DNA from: a virus
Length of the DNA: 25,731 nucleotides
Reading direction: 5' to 3' (one strand)
Virus record (IMG/VR): IMGVR_UViG_3300021961_000569
Coordinates: 1-25,731 of that record
Made by a program: the position numbers and the translations under genes. Below, one piece after another: positions 10,837 to 15,456 of the stretch (position 1 is the stretch's first letter; every line of letters begins with the position of its first letter). The notes beneath the pieces were generated by a model. It saw only the letters and a program-made list of their open reading frames with translations. It did not search any database and was not told the DNA's origin.

Positions 10837-11619
10837 GTGGCAGCACCTAGACCAAGAAGGATATCAGATTTCAAACCAGCACTAACAAACCTAGCGCAAA
10901 CTTCACATTATCAAGTTATCTTCAGTGGTCTTCCCCTACCACTAAGAAAACATTTGAACGTTAGAGGAGTTGGATACAGGTTTATCACAGAAACATCAGG
11001 ACTTCTTTGTTACTCCGCTTCCTTACCTGGAAGTTCCCTTGCTACTGCTAACGTCAAGGGAAACTTTATGGGAGTCGTTGAGAATATGGCTCACACAAGA
11101 CTATTCACAGAGATAGGTCTTGAGTTTTATGTTGATAATGAGTATAGAACTCTCAAGTTCTTAGAACATTGGATGGAGTTTATCGCCAATGGTTCTGCTC
11201 ATAGGAAAGCATCCGATGACTATTACTTCAGAATGGAGTATCCATCAGACTATAAATCAAACCAAACAAAGATTATCAAGTTTGATAGAGACTACAGTGA
11301 GAATATAGAATATACTTTCTGGGGACTATTCCCAAGAGACCTATCATCAACGACTGTTAAGTATGATAGTTCTGAAATATTGAAAGCATCTGTTCGTTTT
11401 AGTTACGACAGATATATCTGTGGTAGAAGTGATAGTTACTCTATTCATAGAGGAAATGAAGAGAACAAGGAAGAGGAGAAGAGTTCACCCACTGCAAGTG
11501 AATCTAGAAGAGTTAATCTTTCTGCTGGGGCAGCAGGTGCTGGTGGAGTTAGATCGGCAACATATGGTAGAGTTACTGAAGATATAGTAAATGATAGATT
11601 AGGTCCCCCTGGTCGTTGA
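10837..11619 (+). CDS. Tail-tube-fold baseplate protein (gp54-like)
   Basis: A 260-residue protein from GTG 10837 (the frame has no nearby ATG; AAGG at 10825-10828 supports this start). The segment E-T-S-G-L-L-C-Y-S-A-S-L-P-G-S at about 52-66, then F-Y-V-D-N-E-Y-R-T-L-K-F-L-E-H-W at 97-112, matches the gp19-type tube fold shared by tail tube and baseplate-tube proteins. In this place, between gp4/gp48 and gp26, it is most likely the T4 gp54-like initiator that starts the tube, rather than the major tube protein. The C-terminal 50 residues are low-complexity (E-E-N-K-E-E-E-K, then A-G-A-A-G-A-G-G). Arg codons are almost all AGA/AGG. Confidence 0.6.
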   Translation: MAAPRPRRISDFKPALTNLAQTSHYQVIFSGLPLPLRKHLNVRGVGYRFITETSGLLCYSASLPGSSLATANVKGNFMGVVENMAHTRLFTEIGLEFYVDNEYRTLKFLEHWMEFIANGSAHRKASDDYYFRMEYPSDYKSNQTKIIKFDRDYSENIEYTFWGLFPRDLSSTTVKYDSSEILKASVRFSYDRYICGRSDSYSIHRGNEENKEEEKSSPTASESRRVNLSAGAAGAGGVRSATYGRVTEDIVNDRLGPPGR

Positions 11620-11651: not shown

Positions 11652-12368
11652 ATGCCTTTACCAAAGATCTCTACGCCAACTTATGAGTTGGAACTACCTT
11701 CTACTGGAAAGAAAATTAAATATCGCCCCTTTCTTGTAAGAGAGGAAAAAATTCTTATCATTGCAATGGAAAGTGAAGATGATAAGCAAATCACTGGTGC
11801 TGTAAAAGAAGTTATCTCTAACTGCATCTTAACCAGAGGCGTTAAGATAGAACAACTATCTACATTTGATATTGAGTATCTGTTCCTGAATATCAGAGGT
11901 AAGTCTGTTGGTGAAGAAGTAGAAGTACTTGTAACTTGTCCAGATGATGGAACTACCCAAGTTCCAACTTCAATCAACCTGGATGAAATTAAAGTTCAAA
12001 CTGCAAAAAATCACAGCAGAGATATTAAACTAGATAATGATCTTATTTTGAGAATGAAGTATCCTTCGATGGAGGAGTTCATAAAAAATAACTTTAGTGT
12101 TGAAGAAATTAATCTAGAGAATACTTTCGATCTTATCTCTTCTTGTATTGAGCAAGTTTATTCTGAAGAAGAGTCTTGGTCAGCGTCTGATTGTACTAAG
12201 AAAGAACTGAGAGAGTTTCTTGAGCAGTTGAGTTCAAAGCAGTTCAAGGAGATTGAAACTTTCTTTGAGACTATGCCTAAGTTATCTCATGTAGTTAAGG
12301 TCAAAAATCCTAACACTGGGGTAGAGAATGAAATTGTTCTGGAGGGACTAAACGCTTTTTTCGGGTAG
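11652..12368 (+). CDS. 26: Baseplate hub assembly protein gp26
   Basis: A 238-residue protein (T4 gp26: 208) starting M-P-L-P-K-I-S-T-P-T-Y, with Y-R-P-F-L-V-R-E-E-K-I-L-I-I-A-M-E and V-L-V-T-C-P-D-D-G-T, which matches the T4 gp26-type baseplate hub family. These proteins help assemble the hub and behave like tail assembly chaperones. The end of the gene holds a perfect -1 slippery heptamer, T_TTT_TTC (12356-12362), two codons before the stop TAG; the -1 frame is open straight into the small protein at 12371. The T4 gene 51, which would follow, is replaced by that small gene. Confidence 0.8.
   Translation: MPLPKISTPTYELELPSTGKKIKYRPFLVREEKILIIAMESEDDKQITGAVKEVISNCILTRGVKIEQLSTFDIEYLFLNIRGKSVGEEVEVLVTCPDDGTTQVPTSINLDEIKVQTAKNHSRDIKLDNDLILRMKYPSMEEFIKNNFSVEEINLENTFDLISSCIEQVYSEEESWSASDCTKKELREFLEQLSSKQFKEIETFFETMPKLSHVVKVKNPNTGVENEIVLEGLNAFFG
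12356..12362 (+). other. Candidate -1 programmed frameshift site
   Basis: In the gp26 frame the codons are GCT TTT TTC GGG TAG. The heptamer T-TTT-TTC fits the X-XXY-YYZ rule, so both tRNAs can slip back one base and re-pair. The -1 frame then reads CGG GTA GGT ATG GCT and continues in the 60-residue gene at 12371 to 12553, giving a fusion of about 300 residues. No strong downstream stem or pseudoknot was found by eye. Confidence 0.45.
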
Positions 12369-12370
12369 GT

Positions 12371-12553
12371 ATGGCTCATGAAGATCTTGAGTCATACTTT
12401 AAGGTAAATTTTGCCTTGATACAGCATCATAAATACTCATTGACTGAGATAGAAAACATGATACCTTGGGAAAGAGAAGTTTACCTCACTTTCCTAAAAC
12501 AACACATTGAGGAAGAGAATTTAAAACAACAGCAAGCTGAACTAAATGGCTGA
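12371..12553 (+). CDS. Small hub/tail assembly protein, gp51 position
   Basis: A 60-residue helical protein: S-Y-F-K-V-N-F-A-L-I-Q-H-H-K-Y-S-L-T-E-I near the start, M-I-P-W-E-R-E-V-Y-L in the middle, and a Glu/Gln-rich end. The ATG lies two bases after the gp26 stop; a convincing ribosome binding site is not seen, and the frame is -1 to gp26. It may be made separately by re-initiation or as a C-terminal extension of gp26 by frameshift, the arrangement of G/GT-type tail chaperones in other phages. It stands where gene 51 (hub assembly catalyst) stands in T4-like maps, but is far shorter than T4 gp51. The end overlaps the next gene by eight bases. Confidence 0.7.
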   Translation: MAHEDLESYFKVNFALIQHHKYSLTEIENMIPWEREVYLTFLKQHIEEENLKQQQAELNG

Positions 12554-13889
12554 GTTTTCGCCAATTATAACTGGTTTAAGACCTAGGAGAACTAGAGTCT
12601 CTTCATTTACGTTTTTAAATCGTCCCCAAGAAACCCCAAGGGACGATTATAGAACTACGCTTGCACTGCAACAAAATAGAATTGCTTTTGAAAGCATAAA
12701 CTCTTCCATTACAAATTTATCAGCACAAGTTTCCGCACTCAATAGTTCTCTAATTGGTATTGCTCAAGAGGTCAAGCAAACATCAGCATTAGATCAGGCA
12801 AGAGAGGCACAAAAGAGAAGGCAAGAAGAGATCTTAGCAGAACAACAACTCAGAGAAGGTAAAGAGAGTGTTGTTGAGCGTAAGATGCAAACCTCACTCC
12901 TTGTCCCTGTTAGAAAGGTAGGAGCAAAGGCGCAATTTACTTTATCCAGGTTAGGAAACTTCTTTATGATTCTCCTGGGAGGTTTCCTAGGAAACATGGC
13001 GATACAAACTCTGGGTGCTTTGATATCTGGAGACAAAGAAAAACTAGAAGAACTTAAGAAGAAGTTTTTAGATAATATTGGAGTTGTAAGTGGGATATTC
13101 CTACTGTTTAGTGGTGGATTTGGAACCATACTTGGATCCATCAGTAGACTAACTGCTACTTTAGGAGGAGCACTATTTAAAAATCTTTTACTCAGACCAG
13201 TAAATGCTTTATTGGGATTGGTAAAATCTGGTGCTGCTTTAGTACCAGGAGTAACTAGATCTGGTAAACTAACTAACAGTAACGCTGGAACATCAGCAAA
13301 ACAATCTAGATCAACTAAACCAGCAGCAACAAGAGCAAAAGGATTTGCTGGGGGTGGAATCTTTAAAAGACTACCAATTTTAGCTGGTACTATTCAGGGT
13401 GTATCAGATATAATGTCTGGTGAAAGTATGGGAAGAACTGGTGCTGGATTGCTTGGAATGGGAACTTTGGGTGTAGCAGCATCCTTTATGAATCCATATG
13501 CTGGTCTTGCAGTATTCTTACTTGGATCTGGATCTGCTTCAAACTTCGCAAAAGACATATATGAACAGAGTGGTATTGAGCAGCAATTCCCAGAACTAGG
13601 AACTAATGTAAAAGATATTAAAGGTGGAATATTTAATATTTTCCAGGGCATGGCTGGAACACAAGTTGATATTCAGAGAAGTAGTAATCAACAAACACCA
13701 GATTTAGTTTCTACTGATTCTCAAGGTAATGTAACAATAATCAATACTGAATCTCAGACTAATGGTGGAAAAATAGTAGCGCCACAAAAAGATCTTGGAA
13801 GAGCAAATTATCTACCTAATGTTCCAAGTTCAAATCCAGAAAACTTCTACGTCATGTATTCAAGAGTACAATACAACGTGGTAGGATAA
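12546..13889 (+). CDS. Tape-measure/hub-like structural protein
   Basis: A 447-residue protein. Residues 40-115 are helical, probably coiled coil (Gln/Ala/Glu-rich, A-R-E-A-Q-K-R-R-Q-E-E). Two hydrophobic stretches follow, about 136-160 (N-F-F-M-I-L-L-G-G-F-L-G) and 178-230, with further Gly-rich hydrophobic segments at 290-335. This is the layout of tape-measure and hub proteins that insert into the host membrane. No T4 homologue is clear; by position it may replace gp28/gp29. The next gene has the same plan (basic helical start, then a Gly-rich hydrophobic stretch), so the two may be distant relatives or partners. Confidence 0.65.
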   Translation: MAEFSPIITGLRPRRTRVSSFTFLNRPQETPRDDYRTTLALQQNRIAFESINSSITNLSAQVSALNSSLIGIAQEVKQTSALDQAREAQKRRQEEILAEQQLREGKESVVERKMQTSLLVPVRKVGAKAQFTLSRLGNFFMILLGGFLGNMAIQTLGALISGDKEKLEELKKKFLDNIGVVSGIFLLFSGGFGTILGSISRLTATLGGALFKNLLLRPVNALLGLVKSGAALVPGVTRSGKLTNSNAGTSAKQSRSTKPAATRAKGFAGGGIFKRLPILAGTIQGVSDIMSGESMGRTGAGLLGMGTLGVAASFMNPYAGLAVFLLGSGSASNFAKDIYEQSGIEQQFPELGTNVKDIKGGIFNIFQGMAGTQVDIQRSSNQQTPDLVSTDSQGNVTIINTESQTNGGKIVAPQKDLGRANYLPNVPSSNPENFYVMYSRVQYNVVG

Positions 13890-13890
13890 T

Positions 13891-15456
13891 ATGGCGTATA
13901 CCTCTTCTCTTAACGTAAGATCAATTGGACGTTCTATGTCCAATTTAAACAAGAGTCTCTTGAAGGCTAGAGACTCTGCAAAGTCTGTTAGGACAACTAT
14001 TCTGCAGTCAAACAGAGATAAAAGAAAATCATTTTCAAGTAGTCTGAGTGCATTCAGGAAAAGAAGAGAGGCTGCAAGAAGAAGAGAACGAGAAGATATT
14101 GTTGAAGCATCTACGGTTGGTGGCGCAATACAAAAATCTAGAACCGCTGTGGTCACTAGCACAAAAGGATTTCTAGGAAGAATACTTGATTTCTTAGGAA
14201 CATTATTAGTTGGGTGGGCACTCACAAATCTACCAAACATCATAAAGATGGGCGAAGATTTGATGGGTAGGATGCAAAAATATTTCGATATATTCAATGA
14301 ATTCAAGTCAGGTCTTCAAGAGTTCTTGATAACCTTTGGAGATATGGTTGGTGAAGTTGGTACAGCACTTCAGAATAATGATTTTATTGCAGTTCAAAGA
14401 AGTACTCAGAAATATATGGGTAGATTGCAGGATTCATTTAAGAAGATGGAGGGTTCTGTAGAATCTGTTATTAGGCAACTAAGAAAAGATGTTTATGAAT
14501 TGCTAGGAATAGATCCACCACCTGATGAAGAACCTGATAGCACTACTACTGGTGGCGGTGGAAGTGGAGACCCTGCAGGGGTGCCTGCTGCTGGTGGAAA
14601 CAAGTTTAGTGGAGAAGCTGCTAAGATTCCACCAGAGGGTAAAGCACTTCTAGATGCTATTGCTGGTTCTGAATCTGGTGGATATAACCGTAGATATCCA
14701 TCTAAGACGTTTAGTGGATATAATGATCACCCAAGAATTCGTGAACCAATTTTGGGTGGTCCAAACAAGGGTCTTACAAGTGATGCTGCTGGTAGATATC
14801 AGTTTATATCTACAACTTGGGACCAGTACAAACGACCAGGTGCTAAGTTTACACCAGAAGAACAAGACCTTGCAGCATATAAATTAGCAATTGCTGCTTA
14901 TGGATATGGTGAACAAGGATTGTTGAAGGCACTTAGAGAAAATCCTTTAAAGGTAGCAAACAAACTAAGTGGAACTTGGACTTCTCTACCTGGTGGTATT
15001 GAACCAAACAACGCAACTAATGGTTTCCTAAACAGATATAATTCAAGCGTAAAAACATATAGACAGTCGCAACAATCCGCACCAAAAACTATACAAAAAA
15101 CAGAACAGAATAAGTCCGAATATAAAGGTGGATATACTCCGGAAGAAATTGAAAAACTTAAGAGAGAAAATCCAGGTTTCAACTGGGGAGACTTTCTTAA
15201 CCAGAATAGTAGCAGTAGCAAGACAATCCAAGAATTTGAGTTTGCTTCATCTAAACAAAAGTTCTCACCAGAAATTGCACAGTTTAAACCGAAGAGACCT
15301 ACGAATACTCTAATAATAAGAGAAAAAATAAAAGAACCTCCACAGATTATTGCTACTGGTGGTGGATCTCAGGGTTCTTCATTCCCCTCTGTTACTGAGG
15401 TAAATAGTACTGGAGACTTATTCAAGCAAATAACCCTCACACACGCAACGGTATAA
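13891..15456 (+). CDS. Tail hub protein with muraminidase-like domain
   Basis: A 521-residue protein. Residues 1-75 are very basic and helical; 93-120 contain a hydrophobic stretch (F-L-G-T-L-L-V-G-W-A); about 210-240 is a Pro/Gly linker. From about 250 to 390 lies a lysozyme-like domain: L-L-D-A-I-A-G-S-E261-S-G-G-Y-N, then F-S-G-Y-N-D-H-P-R and S-D-A-A-G-R-Y-Q-F-I-S-T-T-W, the pattern of lambda R/P2 K-like (GH104-type) muraminidases, with E261 the likely catalytic acid. The C-terminus is Ser/Lys-rich. It probably opens peptidoglycan during DNA entry, the role of the lysozyme in T4 gp5, whose homologue here lacks it. Confidence 0.82.
   Translation: MAYTSSLNVRSIGRSMSNLNKSLLKARDSAKSVRTTILQSNRDKRKSFSSSLSAFRKRREAARRREREDIVEASTVGGAIQKSRTAVVTSTKGFLGRILDFLGTLLVGWALTNLPNIIKMGEDLMGRMQKYFDIFNEFKSGLQEFLITFGDMVGEVGTALQNNDFIAVQRSTQKYMGRLQDSFKKMEGSVESVIRQLRKDVYELLGIDPPPDEEPDSTTTGGGGSGDPAGVPAAGGNKFSGEAAKIPPEGKALLDAIAGSESGGYNRRYPSKTFSGYNDHPRIREPILGGPNKGLTSDAAGRYQFISTTWDQYKRPGAKFTPEEQDLAAYKLAIAAYGYGEQGLLKALRENPLKVANKLSGTWTSLPGGIEPNNATNGFLNRYNSSVKTYRQSQQSAPKTIQKTEQNKSEYKGGYTPEEIEKLKRENPGFNWGDFLNQNSSSSKTIQEFEFASSKQKFSPEIAQFKPKRPTNTLIIREKIKEPPQIIATGGGSQGSSFPSVTEVNSTGDLFKQITLTHATV

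Follow-up and report, generated by a model that had tools for sequence, protein, structure and literature searches.

The window, by which we mean the whole stretch of DNA analysed here, is 25,731 nucleotides of a virus (IMG/VR record IMGVR_UViG_3300021961_000569, positions 1 to 25,731), and our subject is the end of its gene 26 homologue together with the small open reading frame (ORF) behind it, which is called gp51 in relatives. The original prediction held that gp26 ends in a perfect -1 slippery heptamer, that the -1 frame is open from there into the small gene at 12371, and that this gene has no clear ribosome binding site. Indeed, a direct reading bears out each of these statements. The features are listed below.

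11652-12368, plus strand: gene 26 homologue, whose 238-amino-acid product would be the short form (TAC-N, where TAC stands for tail-assembly chaperone); it matches PF12322 (T4_baseplate) with E 7e-76 and phrog_150 with E 2.6e-82.
12341-12346, plus strand: GGAGGG, similar to a Shine-Dalgarno (SD) sequence and a probable upstream stimulator, judging from a minimum of pairing energy with the anti-SD and from a GAG codon bias.
12356-12362, plus strand: slippery heptamer T_TTT_TTC, by direct reading; TTTTTTN is found in 247 of 251 loci.
12366-12368, plus strand: TAG stop of gp26 in the 0 frame, by direct reading.
12362-12553, plus strand: -1 frame segment after the slip, R-V-G and the gp51 domain of 60 amino acids, which would supply the C-terminal portion of the long form (TAC-NC); the frame is open and matches phrog_634 with E 3.8e-27.
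12371-12553, plus strand: ORF called gp51 in relatives; separate initiation is possible, not required.
12367-12378, plus strand: 5' arm of a downstream stem-loop, holding the ATG at 12371 (fold z-score -4.26; covariation).
12379-12387, plus strand: loop of the stem-loop, from the fold.
12388-12399, plus strand: 3' arm of the stem-loop, from the fold and covariation.

The 3' end of the gp26 frame reads GCT TTT TTC GGG TAG, with the heptamer phased X_XXY_YYZ as a -1 shift needs it. In the -1 frame the same letters read TTT TTT CGG GTA GGT ATG GCT CAT and continue to a stop at 12551-12553. Counted from the T of the TAG, the ATG of the small ORF begins 5 nucleotides further on, and no SD sequence stands before it at normal spacing. 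A ribosome that slipped would make a protein running ...GLNAFF-RVG-MAHEDLESYFK... across the site, with a predicted length of 235+65 = 300 amino acids. The predicted tryptic ends are ...NEIVLEGLNAFFR for the fusion and ...NEIVLEGLNAFFG for the C-terminus of gp26; a free gp51, if initiated at 12371, would begin MAHEDL. The small ORF carries the family label "gp51, baseplate hub assembly catalyst" (phrog_634), and it also matches positions 239-279 of phrog_150, directly past the match of gp26 itself (5-232), and therefore the phrog_150 family must include joined proteins.

The heptamer is not a chance occurrence. We gathered relatives by gp26 protein similarity alone and added annotated phages, which gave 251 loci in which the end of gp26 is complete, or 72 lineages at 80% amino acid identity. 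An in-frame T_TTT_TTN stands ahead of the gp26 stop in 247 of these loci, and the four exceptions are T2 and three phages that belong to the Ackermannviridae or are similar. The residue preceding the heptamer codons varies across the 72 lineages (S, D, N, A, T, H), yet its codon (AGT, GAT, AAT, TCT, GCT, ACT or CAT) ends in T in every case. The second heptamer codon encodes Phe (TTC or TTT) in 63 lineages and Leu in nine, always as TTA or TTG and never as CTN. With the encoded residues and the codon usage of these genes taken into account, the heptamer would be kept in all of them with a probability of about 10^-36; this estimate is rough and ignores relatedness. Other FF pairs of the same gp26 genes, an internal control, show T_TTT_TTN in 3 of 73 cases, and the likely coding sequence of the window (21.6 kb) holds a single in-frame occurrence, at the gp26 end. 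Among 62 gp26 genes near the window, Phe236 is TTT and Phe237 is TTC in all 62, whereas the codons of other conserved Phe residues vary.

The frame relation is conserved as well. The downstream domain follows the heptamer in the -1 frame in Kyanoviridae, KVP40-like vibriophages, Angelvirus, Menderavirus and Emdodecavirus, and also in pf16, Pootjesviridae and a Methylophilales phage. The conservation check named in the original prediction thus comes out in its favour: cyanomyoviruses share the heptamer and the -1 relation, and both extend well beyond this group. Three relatives without the heptamer, which are Ackermannviridae or similar phages, likewise have a gp51-like domain behind gp26 in the -1 frame, namely Escherichia phage Sa157lw (locus L089, 2741-2905), Vibrio phage YC (L088, 2714-2920) and Vibrio phage K483 (L087, 2579-2755); the domain of Sa157lw carries no annotation and does not start with an ATG.

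What the two parts may be is best seen from T2. Its gp26 (208 amino acids) is the PF12322 domain alone, while its gp51 (249 amino acids) has a PF12322-like domain at 1-201 (E 4e-55) and behind it the same small C-domain; a profile of the latter matches T2 gp51 at 200-244 with E 1.1e-5, as against E 0.89 for T2 gp26. No separate gene for the small domain was found in this region of T2. It follows that T4-type phages carry the short and long forms as two genes, and the group of the window carries one gene with a frameshift; Tulanevirus has genes 26 and 51 arranged as two genes, like the T4 type. This also explains why gp51 of cyanophages and marine vibriophages lacks the first ~200 residues (Sullivan et al. 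2010, PMC3037559), since gp26 supplies them. Both T4 gp26 and gp51 are listed as hub assembly chaperones, gp51 being essential and not present in the particle (PMC3004832). The window's own record, a 25.7-kb fragment, contains no second PF12322 gene, though a separate long gene of the T4 style may lie elsewhere.

An AlphaFold2 model of the window gp26 (pLDDT 87) has as its top matches in the PDB 3fgx (Z 8.0), the HK97 tail assembly chaperone 2ob9 (Z 7.9) and YqbN 3klu (Z 7.2). Like 2ob9, 3fgx and 3klu are phage chaperone-like. The 2ob9 match extends over 84 residues at 4.0 Å, and the next-ranked matches have Z 5.0 and 3.8. Z alone would not be conclusive. Foldseek on the same model gave E of about 1, and a sequence search of the PDB with gp26 and gp51 profiles gave no convincing match. 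Still, the domain make-up of T2 gp51 and the preference of the gp26 model for tail-assembly chaperones agree with the G/GT-type arrangement proposed originally.

A stimulatory structure had not been evident by eye, and in this respect the original prediction needs correction. The stretch 12367-12399 folds into a stem-loop of 12 base pairs (-15.7 kcal/mol, not equalled by any shuffle), which begins 4-6 nucleotides 3' of the heptamer and buries the ATG at 12371 in its 5' arm. Counted over the inner 11 pairs in 62 distinct relatives, pairing is kept in 94.7% of cells as against 29-43% in slid controls, and both sides have changed in 17 cells as against 3.2 +/- 1.5 after shuffling. The clearest covarying pair joins the synonymous third base of an Ala codon to a distant codon: 78 loci have GCT with GAG and 10 have GCG with GCG, the latter in lineages that share as little as about 70-75% identity, and four GCA loci are exceptions. 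RNAalifold alone recovered only a 5-bp core of the stem; counting pairs on the full stem gave a clearer result.

On the 5' side, the GGAGG core of the GGAGGG motif ends exactly 10 nucleotides before the heptamer. Pairing with the tail of 16S rRNA has a sharp minimum at this offset (mean over lineages -6.3, window -9.5 kcal/mol), and among the gp26 genes near the window the Glu231 codon is GAG in 56 of 62 as against a background of 31%. This signal follows in part from a conserved Glu-Gly, and Glu12 shows a similar GAG bias. Glu12 (window 11685-11687) is GAG in 56 of 60 within the window's group and falls in a second patch of strong synonymous conservation, gp26 codons 1-16.

The stem-loop was also sought as a property of all T4-like phages and was not found as such, the mean z-score being -0.7 over 47 lineages outside the window's group. 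S-PM2 (z -5.9) and OLIVR5 are among the exceptions, with strong hairpins of their own. That of S-PM2 (locus L094, 2007-2045) differs in sequence and stands after the same heptamer, which suggests that the stimulator was replaced and not kept.

Taking these observations together, we are confident that one gene here encodes two tail-assembly chaperones, gp26 (TAC-N) and a frameshifted gp26-gp51 (TAC-NC). From the site and its relatives we infer the slippage itself, its rate and the chaperone action of the products. The majority of ribosomes would stop at the TAG and release gp26, the major chaperone. A minority, held by the SD-like GGAGG upstream and the stem-loop downstream, would slip by -1 on U_UUU_UUC and read through the gp51 domain to make the 300-residue protein. 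By analogy with lambda gpG/gpGT, the common N-terminal part would coat the tape-measure protein and the C-terminal part would recruit tube subunits, so that the long form would link the two. In cyanophages some free gp51 may also arise from the ATG at 12371, which the stem covers. We further consider it fairly probable that cyanophage gp26 has a complete dnaX-type cassette (internal SD, U_UUU_UUC, covarying stem-loop) which sets the ratio of TAC-N to TAC-NC, and that the stem also conceals the ATG at 12371, the fusion being then the sole or the main form in which "gp51" is produced.

Several points speak against this interpretation. Members of the cyanophage group retain the ATG at 12371, and a separate gp51 may also be made there by reinitiation. 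Ackermannviridae relatives keep the -1 frame in the absence of the heptamer, with TAATG or with no ATG at all. The stem-loop is restricted to the window's group and a few others, and the likeness of the gp26 model to solved structures is moderate (Z slightly below 8 over about 85 residues).

The first of these points leads to the alternative that survives best, namely that cyanophages make both the -1 fusion and a free gp51 peptide by reinitiation at 12371. It accommodates the retained ATG alongside all the evidence for frameshifting. However, that ATG lacks an SD at normal spacing and sits inside the stem, other lineages manage without an ATG, and T2 has no separate small-domain gene in this region. 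We regard it as possible but rather doubtful.

It is a different matter to propose that there are simply two proteins, the 60-residue gp51 being made by termination-reinitiation at the ATG and the frameshift having no biological use. Roughly half of the lineages do have an ATG near the beginning of the -1 frame, within its first codons, and KVP40-like phages and Vibrio phage YC have TAATG overlaps. But the invariant heptamer is then left unexplained, T2 gp51 is a natural fusion, and in the window the ATG is buried by the stem. Moreover, in 22 of 71 lineages no ATG, GTG or TTG occurs in the -1 frame ahead of the conserved stretch around YYKTNF, and therefore initiation cannot reach the whole domain. 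In such phages (e.g. Melnitz-2, OLIVR5) the annotated starts of gp51 cut into it. Hence we judge this proposal to be very unlikely. In several GenBank cyanophage records, among records such as S-CAM1, S-CAM4, S-PRM1, ACG-2014b and ACG-2014d, the gp51 stretch is unannotated, which is what one would expect of gene callers that overlook a C-domain reached by frameshifting.

Stuttering of RNA polymerase on the T run could also yield mRNAs in the -1 frame, and the site is indeed a run of 6-7 T. However, the run is short and phased exactly X_XXY_YYZ, the SD and the stem-loop stand at ribosomal spacings, and any of the four bases (C, T, A or G) can follow the sixth T, which makes such transcriptional slippage a highly improbable source of the long form. 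That a single fused gene was broken by a sequencing error is ruled out for all practical purposes, since finished phage genomes as well as hundreds of independent contigs show the identical split.

The surroundings of gp26 and the small ORF are as follows.

10837-11619, plus strand: upstream gene of a tail-tube family (phrog_45, E 1.8e-40).
12546-13889, plus strand: downstream ORF of 447 amino acids, a tape-measure candidate from its position only; its single match is phrog_35029 (unknown function, E 3e-5).

The gene order thus has a tail-tube family gene on the 5' side and, on the 3' side, an ORF without a recognisable tape-measure identity; in RHph_I1_18 the annotated tape measure is the second gene past gp51. 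The adjacent ORFs 12546-13889 and 13891-15456 both match phrog_35029 weakly, and the second also has a lysozyme/endolysin-like region (phrog_90, E 1e-21). Possibly they belong to the tape measure or to the hub and carry a muralytic domain.

Two poorly annotated and nearly universal cyanophage genes, gp26 ("baseplate hub") and gp51 ("assembly catalyst"), are most likely one chaperone gene in two frames, and it is then T4, where the genes are separate, that stands out as the exception. Since the putative stimulators are conserved, the ratio of short to long form is testable in a simple reporter.

Frameshifting is reportedly kept in several T4-like groups, T4 using genes 26 and 51, as the abstract by Vladimirov and colleagues is said to state. 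The original prediction took such a frameshift to be undescribed for T4-like gp26, which does not hold: as far as citing papers convey it, gp26 and gp51 were recognised as chaperone genes of T4-like phages by Vladimirov, Gautam & Davidson 2022 (Virology 566:9-15, doi 10.1016/j.virol.2021.11.003), with poly-T slippery sequences in TAC-N genes (as cited in PMC12846349) and, in other T4-like phages, one gene for the short form and another for the long fusion (as cited in PMC10885494). These are the same genes as in the window, and to the extent that the citing papers reflect the article this kind of frameshift has been known since 2022; what may be new is the SD-like motif combined with a covarying stem-loop. 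A conserved -1 shift with a poly-T motif is also found in the tail-chaperone gene of Vandenendeviridae and Andersonviridae, which have contractile tails (PMC12846349), although there the motif is GTTTTT and the virus family is different.

The arrangement resembles lambda gpG/gpGT in that the C-domain ORF is in the -1 frame and open from the slip site. The lambda slippery sequence is G_GGA_AAG, unlike the T_TTT_TTC of the window. The likeness in fold of the window gp26 is to the HK97 chaperone only, similarity in sequence to gpG not having been looked for. In lambda the long form with the C-domain is the minor one, and neither gpG nor gpGT is found in virions (Atkins 2016, PMC5009743).

For the signals themselves the closest parallel is the cassette of E. 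coli dnaX: both have an SD ~10 nucleotides upstream, a homopolymeric heptamer and a stem-loop of ~11-12 base pairs a few nucleotides downstream (~5 in the window). The heptamer is U_UUU_UUC in the window and A_AAA_AAG in dnaX, and the shift yields the longer product in the former and the shorter one in the latter.
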